The position numbers and the translations under genes were made by a program. Of a stretch of DNA of 64,000 nucleotides, positions 12,523-39,525 are shown in pieces. Within the stretch, counting starts at the first letter, position 1. Every line of letters begins with the position of its first letter. Source of the stretch: Lebetimonas natsushimae (GTDB lineage Bacteria; Campylobacterota; Campylobacteria; Campylobacterales; Nautiliaceae); the NCBI RefSeq assembly GCF_002335445.1, contig NZ_BDME01000001.1, positions 744,001 to 808,000 of the forward strand. Direction: 5' to 3'. A model generated the notes under the pieces. That model saw only the letters and a program-made list of their open reading frames with translations, was not told the origin of the DNA and did no database searches.

Positions 12523-12870
12523 TTAATCTGTTTCAAGTTCCAGGCTCATTAAATACATATCTTCCCCGTCAATTATTTCCAAATTACCGCTGTTACATTT
12601 GGGACAACGGTATTCATCTTTTTTGAGTTCCGTTTCAAATCCACAATCCCTGCACCGCACAACTACCGGCTGTATTTTCATAATAAATTCAGCTTCTTCA
12701 CAGATAGTGCCTTCTTTAAAAGTTTCAAATGCCGTTTGTAGTAAATCCGGCTCCACTCCGCTTAGCACCCCGACTTTTATTTCCAGTTTTGTAACTTTTT
12801 TTGCATTATTTTTTCTTGCATGTTCATCCGCAAGTTGAAGCAAGGAATCTACAATAGAATATTCATGCAT
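12523..12870 (-). CDS. hypA: Hydrogenase/urease nickel incorporation protein HypA
   Basis: 115 residues from ATG at 12870. The N-terminus MHEYSIVDSLL has the invariant MHE, whose His2 and amino group bind nickel. The zinc site is CRDC...CPKC in the C-terminal half. HypA delivers Ni2+ with HypB to the hydrogenase large subunit. It is divergent from the TetR/hydrogenase operon, with only 51 bp between the starts. The rest of the hyp genes are 9-17 kb away on the plus strand. Confidence 0.95.
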   Translation of the reverse strand: MHEYSIVDSLLQLADEHARKNNAKKVTKLEIKVGVLSGVEPDLLQTAFETFKEGTICEEAEFIMKIQPVVVRCRDCGFETELKKDEYRCPKCNSGNLEIIDGEDMYLMSLELETD

Positions 12871-12921
12871 TTTATACCTTTTTTTTAAAATTATAATATA
12901 ATTATGAAAAAAGGCTAAAAA

Positions 12922-13500
12922 GTGAAGGAGAATAAAAAAACACAAATAATGAAAACTGCTTTAAAACTTTTTGCAAAACAAGGGTTTTATAATACTACAA
13001 TAGCTGATATTGCCAAAGAAATGGGAATGAGTGTTGGTAATATGTATAATTATTTTCCCTCAAAAGAATCTCTTGCAAAAGAGCTTTTATTATATTCTTC
13101 AAATAGATTCGGTGAAAAATTAAAAGAAATTAATGAAATGAATATTCATGCCAAAGAAAAAATAAAAAAAATAGTTGAGTTGTATTTTAATATGGCGGAA
13201 GATGAACCAGAACTTGTGGATTATTTTATGAGGGTTTATCTTTCCAATAAAGAAATTTTTGCTAATGGGTGTGAGGGAATGCTATGTGTTAGTGCGTTTG
13301 TAACTGAAATAATGATTTTCCTTGAAGAGGGTGTAAGAAGAAAAGAACTTAAAAACCAGGACTTTTTTTCGGCATTTGGTCTTTTTATGGGATATCTGGG
13401 GGGACTTGTGTTTTTAAGTAAAGAAGGTATACTTCCTAAACCTTTAAAAGAATATATAGAAAGTGTAAGTGAAAATATTTACAATGCGCTCAAAGCTTGA
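12922..13500 (+). CDS. TetR/AcrR family transcriptional regulator
   Basis: 192 residues. The N-terminal helix-turn-helix is typical (MKTALKLFAKQGFYNTTIADIAKEMGMSVGNMYNYFPSKESLAKELL, residues about 10-56), followed by an all-helical C-terminal domain. The start is probably GTG at 12922; an ATG at 12949 would cut into the first helix. It is the first gene of an operon with a two-subunit [NiFe] hydrogenase: the next gene begins 17 bp before its stop. It is divergent from hypA. The coupling suggests it responds to, or controls, hydrogenase expression. The ligand is unknown. Confidence 0.9.
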   Translation: MKENKKTQIMKTALKLFAKQGFYNTTIADIAKEMGMSVGNMYNYFPSKESLAKELLLYSSNRFGEKLKEINEMNIHAKEKIKKIVELYFNMAEDEPELVDYFMRVYLSNKEIFANGCEGMLCVSAFVTEIMIFLEEGVRRKELKNQDFFSAFGLFMGYLGGLVFLSKEGILPKPLKEYIESVSENIYNALKA

Positions 13501-14353
13501 TATTATATGGATTGATGCGGTAGGTTGCAATGGATGCAGTCATTCATTTCTTAATTATCCATATCTGAAAGAAATTTATAAAAAGTTTAATTTCTTATAT
13601 CATCCTCTTATTGATTCTCCTGCTTTTAAACTGCAAGAATGTGATATTTTAATAGTAGAAGGGGCTTTGAAAAATAATTTTCCAAGACTTGGGTATAATA
13701 TTAATGATTTAATAAGAAAACTGATTGTCAGGGCAAAAAATGTTATAGCTTTAGGGACATGTGCTGTATACGGAGGAATATTCGGTGAGGGATTAATGTA
13801 TAATAAAGATTTAAGGGGAATGTTTTATAAATGTAAAGATAAGATTATTAATATTCCGGGATGTCCTGTTCATTACGACTGGCTGGTTTATGTACTCGAT
13901 ATGATTTATAAGAATAAAAAAATTGTATTGGATAATCAAAACAGGCCAAAAGAAATTTTTTCTTTTACTTCCCATAGCGGCTGCAGCAGAAATGAGTATT
14001 TTGAATGGAAAATTGATGCCCAGAGTTTTGGTACAAAAGAAGGCTGTCTTTTTTACGAACAGGGCTGTCAGGGACCTTACACCCACAGTACTTGTAACAG
14101 GATATTATGGAATGAGGTAAGTTCCAAGCCGAGGGCCGGCACACCATGTTTTGGATGTACTGAAAGCGGTTTTCCTAAAATCGGGCTTTTTACAACCGAT
14201 ACTTTTATGGGGATCCCTTCAAAAATTCCTTTGGGAGTGAGTAAAAGGGCTTATCTTACAATAAGCGGAATGGCAAAAAGTTTGAAAAATGAAAGACTTT
14301 CCAAAAAATTAATTGACGGATGCAACGATGAAGATAACAAAGAAAATAGTTAA
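13484..14353 (+). CDS. [NiFe] hydrogenase small subunit without Tat signal (sensor/group-2-like)
   Basis: 289 residues from ATG at 13484 (the frame is open earlier). It starts directly in the flavodoxin-like domain: IIWIDAVGCNGCSHSFL supplies CxxC of the proximal cluster, with GTCAVYGG and IPGCPVHYDW. The rest of the cluster ligands follow (HSGCSR, GCLFYEQGCQGPYTHSTCN, GTPCFGCTESGFP), so three iron-sulfur clusters can be formed. No twin-arginine signal is present, so the enzyme is cytoplasmic. It overlaps the TetR gene and the large-subunit gene. It resembles the group-2 (HupU/HoxB-like or cytosolic uptake) lineage; which one is inference. Confidence 0.85.
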   Translation: MRSKLDIIWIDAVGCNGCSHSFLNYPYLKEIYKKFNFLYHPLIDSPAFKLQECDILIVEGALKNNFPRLGYNINDLIRKLIVRAKNVIALGTCAVYGGIFGEGLMYNKDLRGMFYKCKDKIINIPGCPVHYDWLVYVLDMIYKNKKIVLDNQNRPKEIFSFTSHSGCSRNEYFEWKIDAQSFGTKEGCLFYEQGCQGPYTHSTCNRILWNEVSSKPRAGTPCFGCTESGFPKIGLFTTDTFMGIPSKIPLGVSKRAYLTISGMAKSLKNERLSKKLIDGCNDEDNKENS

Positions 14354-15488
14354 TAAAATAGAAGGGGAAGCAAGTTTAAAAATATACGGGGATAAAAAAG
14401 TAGATTTTGTTGAAATTGAATTTTGGCAATACAGGGGAATTGAAAATTATTTGATAAACCGTCCGATAATGGATGCACTTGTTATAAACCCAAGAATATG
14501 TGGAATATGTGGGCACTCTCATCTGTTTGCCACAGTTAAAGCAATAGAAAATGCCGTAAACGCCAAAATATCAAAAAAGGCTAAAATTTTAAGGGACATT
14601 ACGGTTGGGCTTGAAATAGTTGAAAACCATATAAAATGGTTTTATATCACGCTTTTTCCAACACAAATCAAAGATAAAAAATATATTTTTAAAGCAAATA
14701 AATTTGCAACTCTTATTTCAAAAGCCATTGCTTTAATAGCCGGTCAGTACCCTCACAATTCTTATATGATACCTGGCGGAGTGACATGTGATCCAACCAA
14801 TTTGGAAATAATAAAATTAAAAGACTTGCTTCAAAAAATTTATGAAAAATATCAGGAAGAAATTATTGATTTGAATATGAATTCTAATGATTTAAGAGTT
14901 TTTTTTGAAAATTTACCTAGAGATATCGGAAAAAGTGTTAACAGGTTTTTGGTTCTTGGTAATAATCTTTTTTTTAAAAAAAACGGTGATGTAAGTTTAG
15001 TTAAAGAAGAAAAAAACACTTCACTTAGCAAAAATGTTTTATATAACAATTTATTTGTTGAAGTTGGACCGCTTGCAAGAAATATAGAAAATCAAAATAT
15101 AAAAAAAATTTATGATAAATATAAAGATAGTATATATACAAGAATAATCGCAAGGATATATGAAGGATTGTTGATTTTAAAATATTTAATAAAAAAGGTT
15201 AAAGAAATTGATATATGTGAACCTTCATATATTAAGCCAGAAATATATGATGGAACCGGAATTTCAGCAATAGAAGCCCCGAGGGGAAGCCTTGTTCATG
15301 AAATTAAAATAAAAAATGAAAAAATAGCAAATTATAATATTATAGTTCCAACTCAATTTAACCTTTCTTCTTCTCAAGACAAGAATAATCTTTCAGCTGC
15401 TCAGACTGCAATGATTGGTGAAAAAAAAGAATATTTAGACACAATTTTTAAATGTTTTGATATATGTGCGGTATGTGTAAGCCATTAA
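14328..15488 (+). CDS. [NiFe] hydrogenase large subunit lacking the C-terminal extension (sensor-like)
   Basis: 386 residues from ATG at 14328, short for the family. The N-terminal L1 motif RICGICGHSH and the C-terminal DICAVCVSH supply the four cysteines of the Ni-Fe site. PGGVTCDP, EVGPLARN and APRGSLVHEI are also present, so the site looks competent. The protein stops exactly at the final His of the DxCxxCxxH motif, the point where maturation endopeptidases normally cut. Absence of a cleavable tail is known for H2-sensing HupV/HoxC and some group-4 enzymes. With the missing Tat signal on its partner and the leading TetR gene, this favours a regulatory role. A cytosolic catalytic role remains possible. 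Confidence 0.85.
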   Translation: MKITKKIVNKIEGEASLKIYGDKKVDFVEIEFWQYRGIENYLINRPIMDALVINPRICGICGHSHLFATVKAIENAVNAKISKKAKILRDITVGLEIVENHIKWFYITLFPTQIKDKKYIFKANKFATLISKAIALIAGQYPHNSYMIPGGVTCDPTNLEIIKLKDLLQKIYEKYQEEIIDLNMNSNDLRVFFENLPRDIGKSVNRFLVLGNNLFFKKNGDVSLVKEEKNTSLSKNVLYNNLFVEVGPLARNIENQNIKKIYDKYKDSIYTRIIARIYEGLLILKYLIKKVKEIDICEPSYIKPEIYDGTGISAIEAPRGSLVHEIKIKNEKIANYNIIVPTQFNLSSSQDKNNLSAAQTAMIGEKKEYLDTIFKCFDICAVCVSH

Positions 15489-15542: not shown

Positions 15543-15572
15543 TTGAAAATGAATATTTATTTAGTATATAAT
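15543..15572 (+). promoter_or_regulatory. Sigma-70-type promoter for hydABCDE
   Basis: TTGAAA at 15543-15548 and TATAAT at 15567-15572, separated by 18 bp and 30 bp from the hydA ATG. The spacing allows a short leader containing the TTGGAGGG ribosome binding site. It is the best-formed promoter in the hydrogenase region, as expected for an abundant enzyme. Confidence 0.6.
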
Positions 15573-15601: not shown

Positions 15602-16735
15602 ATGAATGAAGCAACTATTGCTAAAATTAAAGAGAGATTAGCATCTCTTAGAAAACTTCCAGGAATTGGAGAAAAAAGTGTAGCTCAGGTTTTAGAAGAA
15701 CACGGCTTTACAAGAAGGGATTTTCTAAAATGGTCTGCAGCAATGGCTGTGATGCTTGGACTTCCAACTAAATTTTCTCCGTTAATTGCCGAAGCGGCTG
15801 AAGTTAGTGACAGATTACCGGTTGTTTGGCTACATCTTGCTGAATGTACTGGTTGTAGTGAAAGTTTGATAAGAAACGACTCTCCTACTATTGATAATAT
15901 TATTTTCAATTTCATCAATCTTCAGTATCATGATACTATCATGGCAGCTGCTGGATGGCAGGCAGAAGAAAATTATGAAGAAGCTTTAGAAAAATTTGCA
16001 GGTAGATTTGTTCTATGTGTAGAAGGTGGTGTACCTACTAAAGATGGTGGTGAGTTTTTAACAATAGGTCCAAACGCTGAAACTGGACTTGAAAAATTAA
16101 AAAGAACTGCTGCAAAAGCTGCTGCAGTTATCAGTGTCGGAACTTGTAGTAGTTTTGGTGGAATTCAGGCAGCAGCACCAAATCCAACAGGTGTAAAAGG
16201 AGTTTATCAGGTAATTAATAAACCTGTAATTAATGTTCCAGGTTGTCCTCCAAGTGCAAAAAACATAGTTGGGACTATTTTATATGTTATCCTATTTGGA
16301 GCACTTCCAGCTGTTGATAATTTCAACAGACCAAAATTCGCATACGGGCTTAGAATACATGACTTATGTGAAAGAAGAGGACATTTTGATGCAGGTGAAT
16401 TTGTAGAACAATTCGGTGACAACGGTGCAGAAAACGGATTCTGTTTATACAAAGTCGGTTGTAAAGGACCTTATACATTTAACAACTGTTCTCGTGAGAG
16501 ATTTAACCAACACACATCTTGGCCGGTTCAGGCAGGACACGGTTGTATAGGATGTTCTGAACCAGATTTCTGGGATTCAATGGCACCTTATGAAGAACCT
16601 CTTGCAAATCATAAATTTGCTTCAGCAAGTGTTGACGCAACAGCAGACAAAGTTGGGGCAACAATTTTAACAGTTGCAGGTGTGGCAATTGTAGCACATG
16701 CAGCACTCAGTGCAATTAAAAATCCTAAGGAGTAA
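15602..16735 (+). CDS. hydA: [NiFe] uptake hydrogenase small subunit, Tat-exported
   Basis: 377 residues. The long N-region ends in the twin-arginine motif TRRDFLKW near 38-45, followed by a hydrophobic segment and cleavage near AEA-AEV. The mature part has LAECTGCSESL (proximal cluster), GTCSSFGG, VPGCPP, and the medial and distal ligands LCERRGHFDAGEF, GFCLYKVGCKGPYTFNNC and GHGCIGCSEPDFWD. A C-terminal hydrophobic helix (about 350-370) anchors it in the membrane. It oxidises H2 at the outer face and passes electrons to HydC. The layout matches HydA of Wolinella, Helicobacter and Campylobacter (group 1b). The next gene follows after 3 bp. Confidence 0.97.
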   Translation: MNEATIAKIKERLASLRKLPGIGEKSVAQVLEEHGFTRRDFLKWSAAMAVMLGLPTKFSPLIAEAAEVSDRLPVVWLHLAECTGCSESLIRNDSPTIDNIIFNFINLQYHDTIMAAAGWQAEENYEEALEKFAGRFVLCVEGGVPTKDGGEFLTIGPNAETGLEKLKRTAAKAAAVISVGTCSSFGGIQAAAPNPTGVKGVYQVINKPVINVPGCPPSAKNIVGTILYVILFGALPAVDNFNRPKFAYGLRIHDLCERRGHFDAGEFVEQFGDNGAENGFCLYKVGCKGPYTFNNCSRERFNQHTSWPVQAGHGCIGCSEPDFWDSMAPYEEPLANHKFASASVDATADKVGATILTVAGVAIVAHAALSAIKNPKE

Positions 16736-16738
16736 CAG

Positions 16739-18475
16739 ATGGCAAAAAGAGTAGTAATAGATCCGATTACAAGAATTGAGGGACATTTAAGAGTTGAAGT
16801 TGTTTTAGATGAAAACAACGTAATTAAAGATGCATATTCTTCAGCAACTTTATGGAGAGGAATTGAGGTTATTTTAAAAGGAAGGGATCCAAGAGATGCT
16901 GGATTTATGACACAAAGAATCTGTGGGGTATGTACATATTCACATTATAAAGCTGGTATTATGGCAGTTGAAAATGCACTTGGAATCGAGCCGCCTCTTA
17001 ATGCAAAACTTACTAGAAGTTTGATGAATATGGCATTATTTTTCCATGACCACATGGTTCATTTTTATCAATTACACGGGCTTGACTGGGTAGATATTAT
17101 AAGTGCACTTAAAGCTGACCCTAAAAAAGCTAGCGAAGAAGCTTTTAAATATGTACCAAAAGGATATAATCCAATCGCAACAGGTGAAGACGAGTTAAGA
17201 GAAGTTCAAAAAAGAGTGGCTAAATTTGCCGAAAAAGGTGATTTAGGACCGTTTAAAAACGCATATTTCGGACATAAAACAATGAAATTTACACCTGAGC
17301 AAAATTTAATTGCATTATCTCACTATTTAAAAACACTTGAAATTCAAAGAATTGCTGCTCAGGCAATGGCAATTTTCGGTGGTAAAAATCCACATCCACA
17401 AAGCTTAACAGTAGGTGGTGTGACTTGTACTATGGATTTACAAGATCCAAGCAGACTTGGTGAATATTTACAAAAATTCCAAATTTTGGCTGATTATGCT
17501 AACAGGGCTTATTATGCAGATTTAGCAATGGCTGCTGAAGCTTTCAGAAATGAACCAAGCGTAACACAAAAAACAAATCTTGGCAACTTCTTAACATACA
17601 GAGAGCATCAAGTTGGTGCTAATAAATGGTTGTTTGATGCATGTGGATATATTAAAAATCATGATTTAAGCAAATTCTATGAAATTGATGAAAGTAAAAT
17701 TGAAGAAGACGTAACTCACAGCTGGTACAAAGATACTGGATTTAGACATCCTTATGATGGTGAAACTGTACCAGAATATACCGGATATGTTGATGGTAAA
17801 TCAATCGACGGTAAAGGTAACGAAGTAGATACTAAGCTAGCTAATCCAAATGGTAAATATTCATGGGTTAAATCCCCAAGATATGACAGAGAACCTATGG
17901 AAGTTGGACCACTTGCATGTATGGTGGTGAATTATGCTAAAGGTAATGAAAAAGTAAGAAAAGTTGTTGATGAATTCTTAGCTCAAACTGGTCTTCCAGC
18001 AGAAGCATTATTTACTGTTCTTGGAAGAACAGCAGCAAGAATGCTACAAACTAAAGTAATTGCAGATTATGGATTAGAAGCATTTAATAACTTGGTTGAA
18101 AACTTAAAATCAGACAAATCAACAGTAGCACCTTATAAAATTGATCCTAACAAAGAATACAAAGGTAGATATATCGGAGATGTTCCAAGAGGAATGTTAA
18201 GTCACTGGTGTAGAATTAAAAATGGTAAAATTGAAAACTGGCAAGCGGTTGTTCCATCAACTTGGAATGCAGGTCCGGCTGACGGAAACGGTAAAAAAGG
18301 TGCTTATGAGGCTAACTTAATTGGTATGAAATTAGCTGATCCAACAAAACCACTTGAAGTAATCAGAAGTATTCACAGTTACGACCCATGTATTGCCTGT
18401 GCAGTTCATGTTATGGACGTAAAAGGAAAAAAACTTGGTGAATTTAAAGTAGACCCACTATACGGTGCATGCTAA
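16739..18475 (+). CDS. hydB: [NiFe] uptake hydrogenase large subunit
   Basis: 578 residues. L1 motif RICGVCTYSHY near 60-70; GVTCTMDL; EVGPLACMVVNYA; the C-terminal motif DPCIACAVHVMDVKGKKLGEF is followed by a short tail, so the precursor needs cleavage after the His by HydD. It holds the Ni-Fe(CN)2CO centre that splits H2. It is exported with HydA by the Tat pathway. Codon use and base composition match highly expressed neighbours. It is adjacent to hydA and hydC in one transcript. Confidence 0.98.
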   Translation: MAKRVVIDPITRIEGHLRVEVVLDENNVIKDAYSSATLWRGIEVILKGRDPRDAGFMTQRICGVCTYSHYKAGIMAVENALGIEPPLNAKLTRSLMNMALFFHDHMVHFYQLHGLDWVDIISALKADPKKASEEAFKYVPKGYNPIATGEDELREVQKRVAKFAEKGDLGPFKNAYFGHKTMKFTPEQNLIALSHYLKTLEIQRIAAQAMAIFGGKNPHPQSLTVGGVTCTMDLQDPSRLGEYLQKFQILADYANRAYYADLAMAAEAFRNEPSVTQKTNLGNFLTYREHQVGANKWLFDACGYIKNHDLSKFYEIDESKIEEDVTHSWYKDTGFRHPYDGETVPEYTGYVDGKSIDGKGNEVDTKLANPNGKYSWVKSPRYDREPMEVGPLACMVVNYAKGNEKVRKVVDEFLAQTGLPAEALFTVLGRTAARMLQTKVIADYGLEAFNNLVENLKSDKSTVAPYKIDPNKEYKGRYIGDVPRGMLSHWCRIKNGKIENWQAVVPSTWNAGPADGNGKKGAYEANLIGMKLADPTKPLEVIRSIHSYDPCIACAVHVMDVKGKKLGEFKVDPLYGAC

Positions 18476-18485
18476 GGAGGCACAA

Positions 18486-19184
18486 ATGAAATTTTTAAAA
18501 GTAATGGGAAATTATCTCGGCGGGATAGAGTTCTCTGCCGGGTATAGATGGCAACACTGGATAAGAGCAATTTCTATTTTTATTTTAATTGCGACTGGTT
18601 TTTATATTGCAAACCCTTTTGTGACTTATGCTAATGTGTCAATAGATCCAACCAGATTTACACAAGGATACTTTAGAGAATTTCACATAATTTTCGGTTT
18701 TGCTATGATTGGTGCTGTTTTATATAAAACATTCTTTTTTCTTTTCTTTAGAGAAGGAAAATATGAAAGAGCTTCATTAAAAGATGCGTTTAACATAAAA
18801 TTAGCCCTTCAACAAGTTGGATATTATTTATTAATTTCTAAACACCCTCATACTAAAGGTGTTTATAATCCGTTACAATTTTGGGCATATTTTGCACTTT
18901 ATGTATTCTTTTATGGTATTATAATCACTGGTTTGGCATTATATGCTGAAGTTTATCATAATGGGATGGGTGCATTTTTCTATCCATTTGCAAAATGGGT
19001 TGAAACATTTTTCGGCGGATTAGCATATGTTAGACTTTGGCATCACATTTTTATGTGGTTAATTATCCTTATTGTTTTTGTACACATTTATATGGCTGTA
19101 TTTAATGCAGTATTCGGAAAAAACGGTTCAATGGATGCCATTTTCAGTGGTATGAAATGGGAAAAAGAAGGAGAAGAACACTAA
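18486..19184 (+). CDS. hydC: Hydrogenase cytochrome b subunit
   Basis: 232 residues from ATG at 18486, chosen because AAGGAGGCACAA precedes it; the frame is open 21 bp further upstream inside hydB. Four to five membrane helices carry several histidines placed for two b-type haems (RWQHWIRA, REFHIIFG, LWHHIFMW, HIYMAVF). It takes electrons from HydA and reduces menaquinone, coupling H2 oxidation to the quinone pool. A 92-bp gap with a strong palindrome separates it from hydD. Confidence 0.95.
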   Translation: MKFLKVMGNYLGGIEFSAGYRWQHWIRAISIFILIATGFYIANPFVTYANVSIDPTRFTQGYFREFHIIFGFAMIGAVLYKTFFFLFFREGKYERASLKDAFNIKLALQQVGYYLLISKHPHTKGVYNPLQFWAYFALYVFFYGIIITGLALYAEVYHNGMGAFFYPFAKWVETFFGGLAYVRLWHHIFMWLIILIVFVHIYMAVFNAVFGKNGSMDAIFSGMKWEKEGEEH

Positions 19185-21671: not shown

Positions 21672-23825
21672 ATGAGAATAAAATATAAAATAAACGGAAT
21701 AGTCCAGGGTGTCGGTTTTAGACCTACAGTTTATAAAATAGCAACTTCTCTTAATTTAACCGGATATGTTTTAAATTCAAGTGACGGTGTAATAATTGAA
21801 ATAGAAGGCGAGAATCAAGATAAATTTATAGACGAATTAAAAAAAAATCTTCCACCTCTTGCAAAAATTGATTCAATTGAAAAAGAGATTTTTCCAAAAG
21901 CAGGATATAAAACATTTGAAATAAAAGAATCAAAAAACAGTGATAAAACCACTTCAATTTCTCCCGATATTTGCGTATGTGATGATTGTCTTAAAGAGAT
22001 GTATGACAAAAATAATAAACGATATTTGTTTCCTTTTATAAACTGTACAAACTGCGGACCAAGATATACAATTATTGAAAATATCCCGTATGACAGAAAA
22101 AATACTTCTATGAAAAAATTTAAAATGTGTGATAGCTGCTACAGAGAATATACAAATCCACTTGAGAGAAGATACCACGCCGAGCCCACCTGCTGTTATG
22201 AATGCGGACCAAGTCTCAATGTAAAATGGAGAATGGAGAATGGAAAATGGAAAAATATTGATTTTAATAAAGAAATTGAAAAAATTGAATTTATTGCTAA
22301 TAAAATAAAAGATGGGAAAATTGTTGCCATTAAGGGGCTTGGAGGTTTTCATTTAGTCTGTGATGCTACAAATGAAAATGCGGTAAGTGAGCTGAGAAGC
22401 CGAAAAAAAAGACCTTCAAAGCCTTTTGCAATTATGTTTAAAAATATTGAGAGTATTAAAGAATACTGTGAGATTAATGAAAATGATGAAAAATTAATCC
22501 TCTCAAAAGAAAAGCCAATTGTAATAGTAAAAAAGAAAAGGGAACTCCCGGGCATTGCTCCAAACATTGGCAAATACGGTGTATTTTTGCCTTATACCCC
22601 CGTTCATTTCCTGCTTTTTGATTTTTTGGATTTCCCGATTGTTGCAACCAGTGCCAATATAAGTAACGACCCGATTATAAGGGATAGTAATGAGCTTATT
22701 CAAAAACTGGGAAATGTGGTGGATTTTATTTTGGACAATAACCGTGATATTGTAAATGCATGTGATGATTCGGTAATTCAGGGGGTAAAAGATACATTTA
22801 TCACAATGAGACTCTCCCGTGGATATGCGCCAAAATCTTTTGCTCTTAAAAAGAATATAAAACCAAATATTCTTGCGGTTGGTGCTAATCAGAAAAACAC
22901 AATAACTCTGGCTTTTAAAGATAAGATGATACTTTCACCTCATATTGGAGATTTGGGAACAATTGATTCTATTGAATATTTTGAAAGAACAATTGAAACT
23001 TTCAGAAGGCTTTATGATTTCAAAGAGGATATAATAATCTGTGATAAGCATCCGTATTATGAATCAACCAAATGGGCTAAAAAACAAAATAAAGAAGTTA
23101 TTGAAATTCAGCATCACTTTTCCCATGCCCTAAGCGGACTTTTTGAATTTGATTTAAAAGAGGCTTTGGTATTTGCGTGGGATGGAACGGGGCTCGGAGA
23201 TGACGGGGCCATATGGGGAGGAGAAGTTTTTGTTGTAAATAGAAGCGGGTATGAAAGAGTGCATCATTTTAAGTATTTTAAATTAATAGGTGGAGAAAAA
23301 GCGGTAAAAAATCCTGCCAATATGGCGGTGGCACTGCTTAATGACGATTTGGCAAAAAATTATTCAAATCATAAAATTGCTTTAGCTTTAAAAAACGGAA
23401 ATTTTCCGTTAACTTCATCAGTCGGAAGAATTTTTGATATTGCTGCATTTTTAAGCGGTATGATAGAAAAAAACGAATATGAGGGATATAGTGGAATGTT
23501 AATTGAAAAATATTACAATCCTTTAATAAAAGATTTTATTGATTTAGAAATTGACAGGGAAATAGATTTTTATCCGTTAATTGAATTTGTGGCAAGAAAT
23601 AGAGGAAAATTTGAATTAGTTTCATCAGTTTTTTTAAATACTCTTACTAATTTAATTAAAAAAATTTCCAAAAATTATAATCTGCCGGTTTTACTTACAG
23701 GTGGTGTTTTTCAAAATACAACCCTTTTATCTTTAATTGATAATGTTTATTTTAATCAGACTATTCCTGTTAATGACGGTGGTATCAGTGTAGGGCAGGC
23801 AGCTTATGGGATATGGAACTTATAA
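21672..23825 (+). CDS. hypF: Carbamoyltransferase HypF
   Basis: 717 residues. Acylphosphatase domain at 1-90 (VQGVGFRPTVYK). Two zinc fingers follow (CVCDDCLKEMYD...CTNCGPRYT near 100-135; CDSCYREYTNPLERRYHAEPTCCYECGPS near 150-180). Then a YrdC-like domain (IAIKGLGGFHLVCDA-type motif, KKRPSKPFAIM) and a Kae1-like domain (HHFSHALSGL near 478, FAWDGTGLGDDGAIWGGE). It makes the carbamoyl group that HypE turns into the cyanide ligands. The linker after the zinc fingers contains a 7-bp-repeat insertion (WRMENGKWKN). The 3' end overlaps the next gene by 6 bp. Confidence 0.97.
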   Translation: MRIKYKINGIVQGVGFRPTVYKIATSLNLTGYVLNSSDGVIIEIEGENQDKFIDELKKNLPPLAKIDSIEKEIFPKAGYKTFEIKESKNSDKTTSISPDICVCDDCLKEMYDKNNKRYLFPFINCTNCGPRYTIIENIPYDRKNTSMKKFKMCDSCYREYTNPLERRYHAEPTCCYECGPSLNVKWRMENGKWKNIDFNKEIEKIEFIANKIKDGKIVAIKGLGGFHLVCDATNENAVSELRSRKKRPSKPFAIMFKNIESIKEYCEINENDEKLILSKEKPIVIVKKKRELPGIAPNIGKYGVFLPYTPVHFLLFDFLDFPIVATSANISNDPIIRDSNELIQKLGNVVDFILDNNRDIVNACDDSVIQGVKDTFITMRLSRGYAPKSFALKKNIKPNILAVGANQKNTITLAFKDKMILSPHIGDLGTIDSIEYFERTIETFRRLYDFKEDIIICDKHPYYESTKWAKKQNKEVIEIQHHFSHALSGLFEFDLKEALVFAWDGTGLGDDGAIWGGEVFVVNRSGYERVHHFKYFKLIGGEKAVKNPANMAVALLNDDLAKNYSNHKIALALKNGNFPLTSSVGRIFDIAAFLSGMIEKNEYEGYSGMLIEKYYNPLIKDFIDLEIDREIDFYPLIEFVARNRGKFELVSSVFLNTLTNLIKKISKNYNLPVLLTGGVFQNTTLLSLIDNVYFNQTIPVNDGGISVGQAAYGIWNL
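22225..22255 (+). repeat. Heptanucleotide tandem repeat, copy 2, inside hypF
   Basis: About four units of AATGGAG/AATGGAA, read in frame as WRMENGKWKN. They lie in the linker between the zinc-finger and YrdC domains, where length variation should be tolerated. Confidence 0.85.
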
Positions 23826-24452
23826 ATAGAGTTCATATTTTACAAGTTCATTTACACTCAGTTTAAAATTGTTAAACCTAAATTCAGCTTCTTTTAAATA
23901 ATAAATAAAATTTTCTTTTTTTATTCCTTTGTATTTTTTAATAAATTCTTCAAAATATTTCCAAAATTTATAAATTAAAATCTGTTTTTGAACTTTGATT
24001 AACTGAGTTTGTCTTAGAATTGATTTAATCTCATCATAATTTAAATCTTTATATTTACTCATATCACTAAGCAGAATATTATAAATTTTACCCCCATAAT
24101 CAATTGTTAAAAAATTTTGGGCAGTATAGATGGAGTTTTTGTTTTTTCTGTTTGTTTTTGGTATATATAAATATTCGTTGAATTCTTTAATTTCCTGCTT
24201 TTTTAAAAATTCTTCTTCGCATTTGTTTAGTAGAATTTTTCTTATATTTTTAATTTCTTTCACCACCGTTGCATAGGAAATATTGTATTTTTCAGCAATT
24301 TGAGTTGGATTTAATTCATCCAAAAAGCCTTTTAATATTTTGGCTTTTTTGTCAATTTTTTTTGGTGAAAATTTTCTTTTACATTTAGCGCACTTGTAAT
24401 ATCCGTTTTTTAATTTATATAAAATATAATGATTGCAGTAAATACAACTCAT
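23820..24452 (-). CDS. Zinc-ribbon/HTH protein derived from an IS1595-type transposase, probably inactive as transposase
   Basis: 210 residues. The N-terminal zinc ribbon is CIYCNHYILYKLKNGYYKCAKCKRKFSP, the arrangement of IS1595/ISXO2 transposases. A helix-turn-helix follows (NPTQIAEKYNISYATVVKEI, about 48-68). The C-terminus FWKYFEEFIKKYKGIKKENF...EAEFRFNNFK matches the conserved end of that transposase family. The middle is degenerate: the place of the first catalytic Asp-Glu reads FNEY, and no clear second Asp or final catalytic residue remains. The frame is intact and no terminal inverted repeats are seen, suggesting a domesticated DNA-binding protein rather than a live element. It sits between hypF and the metal importer, divergent from the latter. 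Confidence 0.7.
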   Translation of the reverse strand: MSCIYCNHYILYKLKNGYYKCAKCKRKFSPKKIDKKAKILKGFLDELNPTQIAEKYNISYATVVKEIKNIRKILLNKCEEEFLKKQEIKEFNEYLYIPKTNRKNKNSIYTAQNFLTIDYGGKIYNILLSDMSKYKDLNYDEIKSILRQTQLIKVQKQILIYKFWKYFEEFIKKYKGIKKENFIYYLKEAEFRFNNFKLSVNELVKYELYL

Positions 24453-24483: not shown

Positions 24484-24497
24484 TGAATTATAATTCA
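24484..24497. promoter_or_regulatory. 14-bp perfect palindrome TGAATTATAATTCA, candidate operator or promoter
   Basis: A perfect palindrome lies 32 bp before the start of the transposase-derived gene. It contains a TATAAT on both strands. A 12/14 match (TGAGTTACAATTCA) lies near the importer start. It may be an operator shared by both divergent transcripts or simply a -10 region. Confidence 0.4.
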
Positions 24498-24702: not shown

Positions 24703-24716
24703 TGAGTTACAATTCA
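24703..24716. promoter_or_regulatory. Second TGARTTAYAATTCA copy, in the importer promoter
   Basis: TGAGTTACAATTCA, differing at two positions from the perfect palindrome 219 bp upstream, lies 23 bp before the cbiM ATG. TACAAT inside it could be the -10 element of the importer operon, so a bound regulator would block initiation. Confidence 0.4.
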
Positions 24717-24739: not shown

Positions 24740-25387
24740 ATGCATATACCTGACGGGTATCTTTCACCTGCAACAGTCGCAGTAAGTTATGCCGTAATGG
24801 TACCTCTGTGGGCATACGGGTTTAAAAAATTAAAAGAAAAACTTGACGAAAAAACTTTGCCTCTTCTTGGAACTTTAAGTGCCCTTAGTTTTTTAATTAT
24901 GATGTTTAACGTACCGGTGCCCGGAGGAACCAGCGGACATGCAATAGGCACGTCTTTGCTTTCGATAATGTTTGGTCCGTGGGTGGCGTTTATTTCCGTT
25001 TCTTTTGTATTATTGATTCAGGCGGTTGTATTTGGGGATGGAGGAATAAGCACCTGGGCTGTTAATTCATTTGATATGGCTTTTGTTGCTGCATTTGTTG
25101 CTTATTATGTTTTTAAATCTTTGAAGGACAAAACAAGATTTGCCCCATTTATAGCTGGATATATTTCTATCAATATTGCAGCTCTTTCTGATTCATTAAT
25201 ACTAGGAATTCAGCCTCTTTTCTGGCATACTGCCGATGGACATCCGTTATATTTTCCATTTGGTTTAAGTGTGGCAATTCCTGCAATGATGGCGGCGCAT
25301 TTGGGTGTTTTTGGTGTAATTGAAGGTGTGTTTACACAAATTGTATATAGTTTTCTTAAAAAAAGAGCTAAGGAGGCAAAAATATGA
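24740..25387 (+). CDS. cbiM: ECF-type nickel/cobalt transporter S component, CbiM/NikM family
   Basis: 215 residues with about six to seven membrane helices. The N-terminus MHIPDGYLSP is diagnostic: the amino group, His2 and further His residues form the square-planar metal site. A second motif is GGTSGHAIGTSLLSIMFGPW. It captures Ni2+ or Co2+ for import. The neighbourhood (hyp genes on both sides, no cobalamin genes in view) favours nickel, which is inference. AAAAAGGAG precedes the ATG. It overlaps the next gene by an ATGA. Confidence 0.92.
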   Translation: MHIPDGYLSPATVAVSYAVMVPLWAYGFKKLKEKLDEKTLPLLGTLSALSFLIMMFNVPVPGGTSGHAIGTSLLSIMFGPWVAFISVSFVLLIQAVVFGDGGISTWAVNSFDMAFVAAFVAYYVFKSLKDKTRFAPFIAGYISINIAALSDSLILGIQPLFWHTADGHPLYFPFGLSVAIPAMMAAHLGVFGVIEGVFTQIVYSFLKKRAKEAKI

Positions 25388-25695
25388 ATAAGAATGTAAA
25401 AAGAGCATTGATTATTTTGGGATTTGTTCTTTTACTGGTTCCTCTTGGATTATTAACAGATGCTCCTGCATGGGGAGAGTGGGATAATGATTTTTATCAA
25501 AAAACATTGGGATTTGTTCCAAAAGGAATAGCTCAGGCTAAGGAATTTATCCATCCGCTTTTGCCTGATTATTCGCTTCCAGGGACAAATGATGTGGTAG
25601 GTTATTATATAAGTGCAATAATCGGAAGTGTGCTTATATTTGGGATATTTTATTTAATAGGAAAAACTATTGCAAAAAAACATGATAATAATTAG
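25384..25695 (+). CDS. Small membrane component of the nickel/cobalt ECF transporter, CbiN/NikN-like
   Basis: 103 residues with two membrane helices (about 10-28 and 75-95). An extracytoplasmic loop carries DAPAWGEWDNDFY, the pattern of PDGLE-domain/NikN proteins. These proteins assist CbiM/NikM in metal loading. It overlaps cbiM at the start and the T component at the end. Confidence 0.82.
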   Translation: MNKNVKRALIILGFVLLLVPLGLLTDAPAWGEWDNDFYQKTLGFVPKGIAQAKEFIHPLLPDYSLPGTNDVVGYYISAIIGSVLIFGIFYLIGKTIAKKHDNN

Positions 25696-26227
25696 AATAT
25701 TTTTTATTCTGACTTTTTTTCTTTTGTTAAGTATTAAAAAAATAGAATATTTAATTTTTGTAATTCCCGTTTTATGGATTTTTTCTTATAAAAATTTTGT
25801 TAAATTAAATATTAGAGTAGTTAAATCAATTTTGGTTTTTAATTTAGGTGTGAGTTTGGGATATGTATTGATGGCCTGGTTTAAACATATAAACCCCTGG
25901 GAATACGTGATTTATATAAATTTAAAAGTATATGTGCTTACTTATTTCGTATTCTGGTTTTTTGGTAAAATTTCTCCAGTTCAGTTTATGGCTTTTTCAA
26001 AAGATTTGGGATATTTGACAACTATAGCGCTTTCTCAGATTTTTTCATATAAAAAAACTTTTGAGGATTTTAAATTTGCATTTAAAAGCAGGGTGGTTAA
26101 ACTGAGCGATAAAGACCCAAAATTTATAACAAGGGTATTTGAATTTTTCTTAAACAAAGCTTTAAAAGATGCTGACGAGAGAAGTCTGGCAATGAAAGCA
26201 AGAGGATTTTTTGACAATGAAAAATGA
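25682..26227 (+). CDS. cbiQ: ECF transporter T component, CbiQ family
   Basis: 181 residues from ATG at 25682, inside the end of the previous gene; the frame is open 12 bp earlier. Four hydrophobic segments are followed by the cytoplasmic coupling helices. The conserved Ala-Arg-Gly motif is visible near the end (LAMKARGFF). It is shorter than typical CbiQ (about 220), lacking one helix region, but the coupling motif is present. It links the substrate-binding component to the ATPase. Its stop lies within a 7-bp-repeat run that continues into the ATPase gene. Confidence 0.85.
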   Translation: MIIIRIFFILTFFLLLSIKKIEYLIFVIPVLWIFSYKNFVKLNIRVVKSILVFNLGVSLGYVLMAWFKHINPWEYVIYINLKVYVLTYFVFWFFGKISPVQFMAFSKDLGYLTTIALSQIFSYKKTFEDFKFAFKSRVVKLSDKDPKFITRVFEFFLNKALKDADERSLAMKARGFFDNEK

Positions 26228-26253
26228 AAAATGGAGACTGGAGAATGGAAAAT
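26217..26253 (+). repeat. Heptanucleotide tandem repeat, copy 3, across the cbiQ/cbiO junction
   Basis: Five units (ATGAAAA, ATGAAAA, ATGGAGA, CTGGAGA, ATGGAAA) span the cbiQ stop and the first codons of cbiO. They provide several ATG codons and two GGAGA ribosome-binding-like cores. Confidence 0.85.
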
Positions 26254-27000
26254 ATTATAAAGCTTGAAAGTATTGATTTTTATTATGATGAAAAGGTGCT
26301 TGATGATATAAATTTAAAAATTAAAAAAAATGAAAAAATTTCAGTTCTCGGAAGCAACGGAAGCGGAAAATCTACCCTTTTAAGGGTTTTAGCGGGGCTT
26401 TATTTTGCAAAAAAAGGCAATTATTTTTTTGAAGGGGTAAAAGTCAATAAAAAAATAGCAAAAAAATTAAGAAAAAAAATAGGAATCCTTTTTCAAAATC
26501 CCGATTCTATGATTTTTAATCCCACAGTTTATGATGAAATTGCTTTTTCACTTAAAGAGTTTGGTTTTGATGATATTGATGACAGGGTTATAGAAATTGC
26601 CAAAAAATTTCATATTGAAAAATATTTAAGTAAATCTCCTATTAATTTAAGCGGCGGGGAAAAACAGAAAGTTATGCTGGCGGCCATTTTGGTTTATGAG
26701 CCTGAAGTTTTGCTTTTGGATGAACCTACCACGGCAATGGACCCTAAAACTACCGGATGGTTTATCGATTTTTTACTGGAACTTGATAAAACGGTTGTTT
26801 TGGCCACCCATGATTTAAGCGTTGCATATGAGACAACCGACAGGGCTGTAGTAATGAGTGAAGGGCATAAGATTATTTATGACGGGGATATGGATGATCT
26901 TATGAAAAATTTAGATATTCTGTTAGAGGCTAATTTAATACACAAACATAAACACAGGCATAAAAATTTTATCCATTCACATTACCATTTACATTTTTAG
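26224..27000 (+). CDS. cbiO: ECF transporter ATPase, CbiO/NikO family, with His-rich tail
   Basis: 258 residues. Walker A GSNGSGKST near 44, Q-loop LFQNPDSMIFNPTVYDEI, signature LSGGEKQK, Walker B VLLLDEPTTAMDP and switch LATHDLSVAYE are all intact. The C-terminus is very His-rich (HKHKHRHKNFIHSHYHLHF, nine His in 19 residues), suggesting Ni2+/Co2+ binding for storage, sensing or delivery. The start is uncertain: ATG at 26224 adds MKNGDWR from the 7-bp repeat, while ATG at 26245 begins MENIIKLESIDFYY, closer to the family. It hydrolyses ATP to drive metal uptake. Confidence 0.93.
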   Translation: MKNGDWRMENIIKLESIDFYYDEKVLDDINLKIKKNEKISVLGSNGSGKSTLLRVLAGLYFAKKGNYFFEGVKVNKKIAKKLRKKIGILFQNPDSMIFNPTVYDEIAFSLKEFGFDDIDDRVIEIAKKFHIEKYLSKSPINLSGGEKQKVMLAAILVYEPEVLLLDEPTTAMDPKTTGWFIDFLLELDKTVVLATHDLSVAYETTDRAVVMSEGHKIIYDGDMDDLMKNLDILLEANLIHKHKHRHKNFIHSHYHLHF

Positions 27001-27060: not shown

Positions 27061-27101
27061 GCATAAAAATAAAAATGAATAATTATTTATAAGGAGTATA
27101 A

Positions 27102-27818
27102 ATGAAAGAAAATTTAATCAATGAAGATATTAAAAATAATCCTCAACTTAATCATAAAGTTACAGTTATTGAAAAAATATTAAGTAAAAATAACAAAATG
27201 GCTGATGAAATAAGAAGCGAATTTGATAAACATCAAATTACATGTTTTAACATGATGAGCTCTCCTGGTAGCGGAAAAACCACAACTCTTGAAAATTTGG
27301 CCGATAAATTGCCTTACAAATTTGCTGTAATTGAGGGTGATTTGGAAACAAGCAGGGATGCAGACAGAATTAGAAACAAAGGTATTTGGTCTTTTCAACT
27401 CCAAACCGGAAGGGCGTGTCATCTTGATGCCGGAATGGTAAAAAACGCAATGCCTCATTTTCCTTATGAAAATACAGAAATTGCTTTTATTGAAAATGTT
27501 GGAAATCTTGTATGTCCTGCAAGTTATGATGTAGGTGCTCATTACAATATGGTATTTGTAAGTGTGCCTGAGGGGGATGATAAAATTGAAAAATATCCTG
27601 TAATGTTTAGAAAAGCTGATATAGTAGTAATTACAAAATGTGATATGCTTGAATTTTTTGATTTTGATGTCAAAAGGGCAAAAGAGGCTGCTGATAAGCT
27701 TAAACCGGGAGTACCTGTAGTGCTTTTAAATAATAAAACTGGTGAGGGACTCGATGAAATTATTAACTGGATAAGTGAAAAAAGAAAAGAACATCTAAAG
27801 AATTTAAAGGATAAATAA
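27102..27818 (+). CDS. hypB: Hydrogenase nickel incorporation GTPase HypB
   Basis: 238 residues. P-loop MSSPGSGKTTTLENL near 50, ENVGNLVCPASYDVG and ITKCDMLEFFDFD are typical of the SIMIBI-class GTPase HypB. The N-terminal region has no His-rich stretch, unlike some homologues. The His-rich tail of the neighbouring CbiO may play that part; this is speculation. It loads Ni2+ with HypA into hydrogenases. Stop and hypC start share an A (TAATG). Confidence 0.96.
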   Translation: MKENLINEDIKNNPQLNHKVTVIEKILSKNNKMADEIRSEFDKHQITCFNMMSSPGSGKTTTLENLADKLPYKFAVIEGDLETSRDADRIRNKGIWSFQLQTGRACHLDAGMVKNAMPHFPYENTEIAFIENVGNLVCPASYDVGAHYNMVFVSVPEGDDKIEKYPVMFRKADIVVITKCDMLEFFDFDVKRAKEAADKLKPGVPVVLLNNKTGEGLDEIINWISEKRKEHLKNLKDK

Positions 27819-28126
27819 TGTGTTTGGCAATTCCAAGTAAAGTTTTAAAAGTAGATGAAAATAATATGGCTGAGGTTGATACTTTAGGAGTTAAAAGGAC
27901 AGTAAGTCTTGATTTGATACAAGAAGAGGTAAAACCCGGAGATTATGTATTAATTCATGTCGGATATGCAATGAGTAAAATTGATGAAAAATTTGCACTT
28001 GAAAGTATAGAAGTTTATAAACAGTTAGCAGAAGCTGCTGCAATGGAAGAGGATGCCATTTCTCCTGAGAAACTGGTAAATGAAGACGGACCTCTTCTTT
28101 ATAAACCGAAGGCAGAGGATGAGTAA
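27818..28126 (+). CDS. hypC: Hydrogenase assembly chaperone HypC
   Basis: 102 residues. The N-terminus MCLAIPSKVLKV has the essential Cys2 that binds the large-subunit precursor and HypD. The OB-fold core continues through VLIHVGYAMSKID. The C-terminal tail is about 20 residues longer than usual. It carries Fe(CN)2CO with HypD. It overlaps hypD by 8 bp. Confidence 0.95.
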   Translation: MCLAIPSKVLKVDENNMAEVDTLGVKRTVSLDLIQEEVKPGDYVLIHVGYAMSKIDEKFALESIEVYKQLAEAAAMEEDAISPEKLVNEDGPLLYKPKAEDE

Positions 28127-29237
28127 TTTAACTCTTAAAGACTTATATACGAAATTTAGAGATCCTGCCACCATTAAGGCTTTAGCAAAAGAGATTCATA
28201 AACTGGCTGATAAGCTTGATGAACCTATGAGAGTAATGGAAATATGCGGAGGTCATACGCATACAATTATGAAATACGGTATAAAACAACTAATGCCTGA
28301 AAATATTGAATTTATCCATGGACCTGGTTGTCCTGTTTGTGTTATGCCAAAAGAGAGAATAGACCATGCCATTACTTTAGCTAAACAGCCGGGTGTAATT
28401 CTGACTACTCTTGGTGATATGATAAGAGTACCCGGAAGTAAATCAAGCCTTGCAAAAACAAGGGCTGATGGTTATGATATAAGGCCTCTTCATTCAACAT
28501 TTGACGTACTCAATATTGCAAAAAAAAATCCGGATAAGAAAGTTATATTTTTTGCAATAGGGTTTGAAACCACAACTCCAATGACGGCAGCTCTTATGAA
28601 AAGGGCTTTTAATGAAGGAATAAAAAACATTTATTATCATATAAACCATGTTCTAACACCTCCTCCTATGAGGGCGATAATGGACAGTGGAGAAGCCAGG
28701 ATAAATGCTTTTATAGCCCCAAGTCATGTAAGTGTAATAATCGGGGCTAAAAGTTACCAGTTTTTAGTAGATGAATATAATACTCCTGTGGTGGTTGCAG
28801 GATTTGAGCCTGTTGATGTGATGGAGAGTATTTTAATGCTTGTAAAACAAAAGCTTCAAAATTATCCAAGGGTGGAAAATCAGTATAAAAGGGCTGCCAC
28901 TTGGGATGGTAATGTATTGGCTCAACAGATGACAGAAGAATTTATGGAAATTAGGGACACTTTTAGATGGAGAGGGTTAGGAGACATTCCGAAATCCGCA
29001 CTCAAACTTAAAGACAAATATGCCCAGTTTGATGCGGAAAAGATTTATGCTAATGTATTGCCAAATGAGCATATTGATGATCATAAACTATGTATTTGCG
29101 GGAAAATTTTAAAAGGATTGGCAAAACCAACCGACTGCAAAGTATTCGGGACTGCCTGCACACCTTCTAGTCCGCTTGGAAGCTGTATGGTAAGTGATGA
29201 AGGTGCATGCAATGCTTATTACAGATATGCAAGATAA
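28119..29237 (+). CDS. hypD: Hydrogenase formation protein HypD
   Basis: 372 residues from ATG at 28119, inside the hypC end; the frame is open earlier but overlaps hypC further. Diagnostic motifs: MEICGGHTHTIMKYG, IHGPGCPVCVMP, AIGFETTTPMTAA, VVAGFEPVDVM, and C-terminal iron-sulfur cysteines (CICGKILKG, CKVFGTACTPSSPLGSCMVSDEGACNAYY). It is the scaffold on which the Fe(CN)2CO unit is built. Confidence 0.96.
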   Translation: MSNLTLKDLYTKFRDPATIKALAKEIHKLADKLDEPMRVMEICGGHTHTIMKYGIKQLMPENIEFIHGPGCPVCVMPKERIDHAITLAKQPGVILTTLGDMIRVPGSKSSLAKTRADGYDIRPLHSTFDVLNIAKKNPDKKVIFFAIGFETTTPMTAALMKRAFNEGIKNIYYHINHVLTPPPMRAIMDSGEARINAFIAPSHVSVIIGAKSYQFLVDEYNTPVVVAGFEPVDVMESILMLVKQKLQNYPRVENQYKRAATWDGNVLAQQMTEEFMEIRDTFRWRGLGDIPKSALKLKDKYAQFDAEKIYANVLPNEHIDDHKLCICGKILKGLAKPTDCKVFGTACTPSSPLGSCMVSDEGACNAYYRYAR

Positions 29238-29246
29238 AGGATAAAA

Positions 29247-30230
29247 ATGGCTGATAAAATAACCTTGGCTTATGGCGGTGGAGGAGAAGAGACAAATAAA
29301 TTAATCAACGAGCTTTTTTATAAACATTTCAATAATGATATTTTAACAAGTGCAGAAGATGCCGCTGTTGTAAATGCTAATGGAAAAATTGCTTTTACTA
29401 CGGATTCATTTACGGTAAGTCCGTTGTTTTTTAACGGAGGAAATATTGGTAAACTTGCAATTGCCGGGACTTGCAATGATTTGGCTATGATGGGGGCAAA
29501 ACCTGAATATATTAGCTGCGGATTTATGATAGAAGAGGGGCTTGATTTTGAAACACTTGAAAAGATTGTAAAAACTATGAGTGAAGAATTAAGTAAAGTC
29601 GGTGCTAAAATAGTCTGCGGAGATACAAAAGTTGTACCTGCCGGAAGTGTGGATAAAATATTTATCAATACATCAGGAATTGGACATATTAAAAAAGAAA
29701 ACATCTCAGCCCATAATTTAAAAAAGGGAGATGTAATACTGGTTAGCCGTGATATAGGTAAACACGGAAGCGTAATTATGGCTCACAGGTATAATGTGGA
29801 AACTACAGCACAGAGTGACTGTAAACTTTTGTGGGATGAGGTAAATGCTTTAATAGAAGCCGGAATTGATATAAAAGCTCTTCGTGATGCAACAAGAGGC
29901 GGACTTAGTGCGGTTTTGAACGAATGGGCAAATGCAAGTGATGTTGGTATTGAAATAGAGGAAGATAAAGTACCTGTAAGTGATGAGGTAACTGGTCTTT
30001 GTGAAATTTTTGGATTTGAGCCTATGGATTTGGCAAATGAGGGAGCATTTATTGTGGCAGTTAGTCAAAATGATGCAAAAAAAGCTGAGGAGTTACTTAA
30101 AAAATTTAATTCAAATGCCTCAATTATCGGGACAGTAACTGATGGAAACAGAGTTGTATTGAAATCGCCTTGGGGAAGTAGCAGATATATTGAACTTCCT
30201 AAAGGCGAATTATTACCAAGGATATGTTAA
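29247..30230 (+). CDS. hypE: Hydrogenase expression/formation protein HypE
   Basis: 327 residues. PurM/AIR-synthase-like fold with AYGGGGEETNKLI near the start, FTTDSFTVSPLFF, GDTKVVP and DATRGGLSAVLNEWA. The C-terminus ends PRIC, whose terminal Cys accepts the carbamoyl group from HypF and becomes the thiocyanate. It works with HypF, HypC and HypD. Its stop overlaps the ubiE start. Confidence 0.96.
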   Translation: MADKITLAYGGGGEETNKLINELFYKHFNNDILTSAEDAAVVNANGKIAFTTDSFTVSPLFFNGGNIGKLAIAGTCNDLAMMGAKPEYISCGFMIEEGLDFETLEKIVKTMSEELSKVGAKIVCGDTKVVPAGSVDKIFINTSGIGHIKKENISAHNLKKGDVILVSRDIGKHGSVIMAHRYNVETTAQSDCKLLWDEVNALIEAGIDIKALRDATRGGLSAVLNEWANASDVGIEIEEDKVPVSDEVTGLCEIFGFEPMDLANEGAFIVAVSQNDAKKAEELLKKFNSNASIIGTVTDGNRVVLKSPWGSSRYIELPKGELLPRIC

Positions 30231-39324: not shown

Positions 39325-39525
39325 ATGAAAATTAATTCAAATATCAATGCAATGAATATTTATGCGGAAAAATTTAATAAAAACGCAGATAATATTGCAA
39401 AAGGCAATAATTTAACTAAAAATATAATTGAAGAAAATATAAATGCAAAAGCTTTTGAAGTTCAAACAAAACCTATAAATACAGAAAATGAGATGTTTAA
39501 AAGTCTGCTTGATATAAAGGCATAA
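39325..39525 (+). CDS. Small protein, 66 aa, flagellar-rod-like N-terminus
   Basis: No signal or membrane segment. Residues 5-30 ([24 protein letters not shown]) recall the amphipathic N-terminal helix and ANNIANxxT motif of flagellar rod/hook proteins, but the protein is far too short to be one of them. The remainder is polar. AAAAAGG precedes the ATG. The HD-domain gene follows after 1 bp, so they are coupled. Flagellar relation is only a resemblance. Confidence 0.65.

Follow-up and report, generated by a model that had tools for sequence, protein, structure and literature searches.

A TetR-family repressor encoded with a group 2d [NiFe] hydrogenase in Lebetimonas natsushimae: a possible kinase-free, H2-responsive switch

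Among described systems, the H2-sensing hydrogenases HupUV and HoxBC of group 2b offer the closest comparison to the locus analyzed here. They share with it a hydrogenase that is not exported, a position near uptake hydrogenase genes, and a large subunit (LSU) that ends right after the last Cys motif. They form a separate clade, however, and signal through a PAS-histidine kinase, HupT or HoxJ, whereas the output in our case appears to be a TetR repressor. A further likeness exists with a hydrogenase of Ideonella, labeled here as group 2c by judgement from its neighborhood, which is also a putative sensor with a non-kinase signaling neighbor (a diguanylate cyclase/phosphodiesterase) but differs in having a C-terminal extension and a protease gene and in falling outside the 2d clade described below. 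For the repressor, TetR/AcrR proteins such as FadR of Bacillus have the same TetR_N domain and a palindromic site overlapping promoters, and the operator of Bacillus FadR resembles the TGAATGANTATTCA palindrome discussed below; the ligand domain of the present protein differs in having no solved structure match and in carrying an invariant Cys pair.

The same lineage as the hydrogenase studied here includes hydrogenase III of Aquifex aeolicus and HupSL of Sulfurospirillum multivorans, both of group 2d, a cytoplasmic pair found in Campylobacterota and Aquificota. The function of group 2d is described as unresolved and perhaps regulatory (PMC10052474). A 2009 annotation of the Nautilia profundicola equivalent labeled it an H2-sensing hydrogenase of group 2, and the same paper also proposed a ferredoxin role (PMC2628731). 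For S. multivorans, a TetR gene was reported to precede hupSL, with no more said of it than that it might repress hupSL (PMC5357620), and TetR-family regulators go unmentioned in a 2019 review of how respiration is regulated in Campylobacterota (PMC6682613). Our own literature search, with subscription journals mostly outside its reach, returned no account of the conserved pair, the Cys pair, the operator, or the regulon set out here.

Within the window, the whole 64-kb stretch of L. natsushimae DNA that was analyzed, open reading frames for a TetR-family protein, a hydrogenase small subunit (SSU), and an LSU overlap in series on the plus strand:

12523..12870, minus strand: hypA, an open reading frame with its start at about 12870, divergent from the TetR gene; context, not a predicted target
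12922..13500, plus strand: TetR-family repressor, 192 aa, GTG start; PF00440; Cys pair C117/C122 in the motif GCEGMLC
13484..14353, plus strand: SSU of the hydrogenase assigned to group 2d, ATG start; Pfam and PDB matches; no Tat signal
14328..15488, plus strand: LSU of the same hydrogenase, ATG start; PF00374; C-terminal DICAVCVSH, no maturation peptide

The TetR and SSU genes overlap by 17 nt and the SSU and LSU genes by 26 nt. Pfam recognizes TetR_N in the first protein, NiFe_hyd_SSU_C and Oxidored_q6 in the SSU, and NiFeSe_Hases in the LSU. The initial annotation had described these three overlapping genes at the same coordinates, as well as an operon lying directly before the hyd genes and divergent from hypA, and both descriptions hold on the open reading frames, with Pfam agreeing on the identity of the proteins; the genes directly downstream are hydABC. 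Its observation that the hydrogenase has no Tat signal is likewise correct, as the SSU has no RR motif and the neighboring HydA carries RRDFLK. The gap between hypA and the TetR gene (12871-12921) contains, in Nautiliaceae, an ATTATA-N-TATAAT palindrome that probably overlaps divergent -10 boxes.

Phylogeny places the enzyme outside the group first suggested for it. In the LSU tree, 34 sequences from Campylobacterales and Aquificota form one clade with 100/100 support, apart from the references for groups 2a, 2b, 2c, and 1. On this placement the hydrogenase is of group 2d, a name taken from the literature on these phyla (PMC5401914, PMC10052474) and not from HydDB. The HupUV-like (2b) label of the initial annotation is set aside, because the LSU falls in a separate clade from HupV, which was the single reference for group 2b in this comparison, and groups instead with the Aquificota enzymes. 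All 60 Campylobacterales relatives of the LSU end at the same place, without a C-terminal maturation peptide; HupV likewise has none, and the 2a, 2c, and group 1 references differ. The L2 motif at the LSU C terminus (15462-15488) reads D-I/V/L/E-C-x-V-C in most 2d enzymes, where DPCxxC is usual. In the SSU, the proximal cluster motif is CNGC here and CxGN in most other 2d enzymes, and a change from CxxC to CxGN was rejected as a mark of a sensor, as the 2a references have CxGN too. The nearest solved relative by sequence for both subunits is 7utd/7uur, which is distant and listed as hydrogenase-2; we take it to be Huc, the mycobacterial group 2a enzyme.

The arrangement of TetR and hydrogenase genes is not a product of chance, since the same gene order is present across Campylobacterales and in many Aquificota. 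A survey of gene neighborhoods found the order TetR-SSU-LSU in 56 of the 60 Campylobacterales loci fetched, the remaining four being on truncated or split contigs or without a labeled TetR at that position, and the order persists in Campylobacterales loci in which other genes intervene before hydABC or hydABC does not follow directly. In many Aquificota loci, too, this TetR gene immediately precedes the hydrogenase pair. In another Aquificota set the pair sits within a hypB operon without an adjoining TetR, and this lineage encodes the TetR elsewhere in the genome, in several cases beside hydA, hypX-hypD-hypC, or nikR/cbiO. The combination of a catalytic clade for the LSU with no TetR linkage in other genomes, which would have told against a regulatory pairing, was thus not what we found. 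Some Aquificota have GGDEF-domain genes adjacent to TetR/hydA or following the operator (L207, 6286-7137; L303). On a plasmid of Sulfurimonas paralvinellae (L328, NZ_CP041407.1, 4541-10441), TetR, the 2d pair, and hydAB lie together after an integrase gene, and because they are carried together the module may move as a unit.

Co-occurrence extends beyond physical linkage. The LSU family is present in about 67 of 150 Campylobacterales genomes; TetR and the 2d LSU are both present in 66, TetR only in 4, the LSU only in 1, and neither in 79 (p = 2e-36). Among Aquificota genomes, which were reached through a 16S pattern, the corresponding counts are 54, 6, 3, and 73 (p = 4e-27). These Fisher p values overstate independence because the genomes are related. 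The joint decay of TetR and the 2d hydrogenase is a pattern independent of them: two apparent exceptions are contig ends that read TetR and then SSU (G058, G251), two genomes with TetR only retain a decaying SSU remnant beside it (G182, G184), and in three genomes with no 2d LSU the TetR gene is fragmentary or contains stops (G106, G203, G209). One genome, G148, is a real exception, in which TetR and a hydA site are kept with no detectable 2d hydrogenase. The correlation between TetR and LSU distances is 0.82, which fits co-inheritance and by itself is not separable from vertical descent.

The TetR protein has a PF00440 TetR_N helix-turn-helix (59.7 bits) and is the more conserved of the two partners, with a mean identity within Campylobacterales of 63% against 44% for the LSU. 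Its C-terminal ligand domain found no solved relative, with structure matches confined to the helix-turn-helix half. Both Cys residues (C117, codon 13270-13272; C122, codon 13285-13287) are invariant in 56 of 56 Campylobacterales TetR sequences and in a 24-row alignment spanning the two phyla. TetR paralogs (L222-L231) lack both Cys residues and are not beside a group 2d hydrogenase. A single-sequence AlphaFold model of TetR was set aside (mean pLDDT 66, Cys loop below 50).

A candidate operator emerged from an unsupervised scan for spaced palindromes, in which TGAAT-N4-ATTCA was found in 49 of 81 regions upstream of hydA, against 0.1 expected. Palindromes of the TGAATGANTATTCA type stand at the hydA promoters of TetR-bearing genomes of both phyla, and the aligned sites read TGAATGANTATTCATT. 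The exact motif gave 72 matches in the 150 Campylobacterales genomes, compared with 10 for a reversed control, and is present in 29 of 136 Aquificota genomes; its association with TetR presence per genome has p values of 3e-16 and 8e-10 in the two phyla, again inflated by the relatedness of the genomes. At the hydA promoters of TetR-less genomes, none of nine came within one mismatch of the motif, the best having two to four. The sites follow the -10 box and precede the ribosome-binding site; those of Nautiliaceae are instead found within the spacer separating -35 from -10. A repressor would act at such positions. Degraded hydA sites, such as TGAATTATCATTTT, are seen in one family (f10: L052, L062, L064, L070) and might fit constitutive expression of hydABC there.

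Among 60 fetched site-bearing loci, 34 have the site at hydA and others at hypC, hypB, cbiM, a NicO-like gene, or a TetR paralog; about ten lie at other or unidentified genes, and five matches fall inside unrelated open reading frames, all in TetR-less genomes. The NicO assignment is weak, resting on one Pfam match below the cut-off. In Aquificota, too, cbiM has a putative operator (L302, L315), and the hyp targets in other genomes have it at hypB or hypC (hypCD). The same scan upstream of TetR itself showed no enrichment, and for this reason the idea that the TetR operon serves mainly to regulate itself was rejected; in one genome (G232), the site stands before hypB, which precedes TetR there.

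It could be argued that a different regulator, perhaps one of the Crp/Fnr type, binds these palindromes and that the connection with TetR is indirect. TGAAT-N4-ATTCA does have the geometry of a Crp/Fnr site, and such proteins also favor 4-nt spacers. We nevertheless regard this explanation as very unlikely, as the presence of the site tracks TetR in both phyla and its positions at -10/+1 or within the -35/-10 spacer are those of a repressor site. Two TetR paralogs (L225, L231) moreover are preceded by an exact copy of the site and a third (L227) by a copy with one mismatch, and the operator of Bacillus FadR, itself a TetR-family protein, is similar.

In the window, putative TetR operators accompany three sets of genes downstream of the locus:

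15550..15563, plus strand: TGAATATTTATTTA, putative hydA operator for TetR, within the spacer of a promoter with -35 TTGAAA (15543-15548) and -10 TATAAT (15567-15572)
15602..16735, plus strand: hydA, small subunit of the Tat-exported uptake hydrogenase (open reading frame, RRDFLK), predicted target
16739..18475, plus strand: hydB, uptake hydrogenase large subunit (PF00374, 679 bits), predicted target
18465..19184, plus strand: hydC, cytochrome b (open reading frame limits, synteny), predicted target
24484..24497, plus strand: exact palindrome TGAATTATAATTCA, 0 mismatches to TGAAT-N4-ATTCA, between a Zn-ribbon gene and cbiM
24703..24716, plus strand: putative operator TGAGTTACAATTCA, 1 mismatch, 37 nt upstream of cbiM, containing a TACAAT -10-like box
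24740..27000, plus strand: cbiM-(103 aa)-cbiQ-cbiO, nickel/cobalt uptake (open reading frames), predicted target
27076..27089, plus strand: putative operator TGAATAATTATTTA, after -10 TATAAT and before the ribosome-binding site of hypB
27102..30230, plus strand: hypB-hypC-hypD-hypE, maturation genes (open reading frames), predicted targets

Across the whole 64 kb, sites with up to one mismatch are not above chance (9 found, 10.2 expected), so the argument for the window rests on placement and conservation. The hydA, cbiM (two sites), and hypB promoter regions together hold four sites against 0.08 expected (0 of 5000 shuffles), a shuffle value that is optimistic because the regions were picked after the sites had been seen. 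A composite of promoter and operator occurs once in the window, with 0.01 expected. As for conservation, the hydA site is kept in an alignment of Nautiliaceae promoters and is the counterpart of the palindrome conserved at hydA in other families, the site at 24484 has the same exact counterpart upstream of cbiM in a relative (G125, L345), the site at 24703 recurs before cbiM as TGAGTTATAATTCA or TGAGTTATCATTCA in three further Nautiliaceae, and the site at 27076 is conserved in G088 as TGAATTATTATTTA.

Of the two targets proposed in the initial annotation, the hyd genes are retained, as predicted target hydABC with an operator-like site on the hydA promoter. For hypA, no operator-like site is present in the 51-nt gap between it and TetR, and a match to TGAATATTCATGCA in relatives is hypA coding sequence; the predicted hyp targets are instead the downstream hypBCDE genes. 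Beside the cbiM operator, a 210-aa Zn-ribbon/HTH-like protein is encoded on the minus strand (23820-24452), and at L280 and L281 similar-looking proteins are encoded divergently to NicO-like genes that have this operator too. A one-mismatch match in the intergenic region ahead of an argH-like gene (39326-39339) is probably due to chance.

The distribution of these sites bears on the view that the group 2d hydrogenase is a catalytic enzyme supplying reduced ferredoxin to the reductive tricarboxylic acid cycle, with TetR as a local repressor of the hydrogenase operon. Such a function has been proposed for Aquifex hydrogenase III and for Epsilonproteobacteria (PMC2628731, PMC5401914, PMC5357620), and the local role for TetR follows the suggestion made for hupSL (PMC5357620). 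Against it, operator-like sites stand on hydA, cbiM, hypB, and hypC and show no enrichment upstream of TetR. Soluble H2 uptake was undetected in S. denitrificans (PMC4584964), Aquifex hydrogenase III has proved difficult to detect (PMC10052474), and the LSU is without a C-terminal peptide, like HupV. We consider this view quite unlikely.

Sequence comparison shows the linkage, the co-occurrence, the conserved Cys pair, and the operator-like sites with their targets, and at the level of sequence the predicted regulon is well supported; that TetR binds the palindromes and represses the genes behind them is what we infer. What TetR responds to is a separate matter. It might control the hyd/hyp/nickel regulon while sensing nickel, thiol redox state, O2, or a metabolite, with the 2d hydrogenase as its partner for some other reason. 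The predicted regulon includes nickel importers, the two conserved Cys residues together with a Glu could bind metal, the Aquificota TetR often adjoins nikR/cbiO, and G148 has TetR and a hydA site without a 2d hydrogenase. Yet TetR follows the 2d hydrogenase and not hydABC, at least nine genomes with hydA having no TetR, 2d pair, or operator; a nickel-repressed model fails to explain joint control of hydA, hypB, and hypC, and a separate nikR stands beside TetR in Aquificota. A signal other than H2 seems to us unlikely.

A kinase of the HupT type would offer another route from the hydrogenase to gene expression. No kinase gene is present near the TetR-SSU-LSU operon, as initially annotated. The genome has 12 HATPase_c places, and scanning covered nine of the proteins: none of the nine is at the hydrogenase locus, and in none was a PAS domain recognized by Pfam beside HisKA, although a divergent PAS could escape Pfam. 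No HupT-like kinase was found among the nine.

We consider it fairly likely that the locus encodes a kinase-free, H2-responsive switch in which hydABC, the nickel-uptake genes, and the hyp genes are under repression by TetR, with the 2d hydrogenase as the sensor. TetR would bind TGAATGANTATTCA-type palindromes overlapping the promoters of hydABC, cbiMQO or a NicO-like gene, hypB, and hypCD, and would thereby repress the uptake hydrogenase, the nickel importer, and the maturation genes. H2 would reduce the cytoplasmic group 2d hydrogenase, and the reduced enzyme would bring about release of the repressor, the simplest route being that it passes electrons to the C117/C122 loop or touches it. H2 as the signal, the hydrogenase as the partner that delivers it, and the Cys pair as its receiver are each inferred. 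That the switch is a one-step H2 sensor, with the hydrogenase passing its redox state directly to TetR via the Cys pair in both phyla, has in our judgement slightly less than an even chance. The kinase-free link between hydrogenase and TetR proposed in the initial annotation is, on this account, supported in part, by linkage in two phyla, unlinked co-occurrence, operator-like sites, and the lack of a HupT-like kinase among the proteins scanned, and revised as to the HupUV label and the hypA target.

The main counter-evidence comes from published expression data: in S. multivorans, which has the order TetR-hupSL-hyd, H2 brought no significant change in the hydB transcript, and the hupL transcript was near undetectable (PMC5357620). 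A Sulfurovum indicum transcriptome was rejected as a test of the H2 response because both compared reductions use H2.

In conclusion, this analysis proposes a regulator for hydABC in Campylobacterota. For group 2d, carbon fixation and regulation stand as competing ideas, and the second becomes directly testable through a TetR partner that is conserved and has a defined operator and regulon. If the proposed switch is true, kinase-free H2 sensing would be present in two phyla that, by published accounts, include many hydrogen oxidizers of vents, and the group 2d hydrogenases would gain a function.
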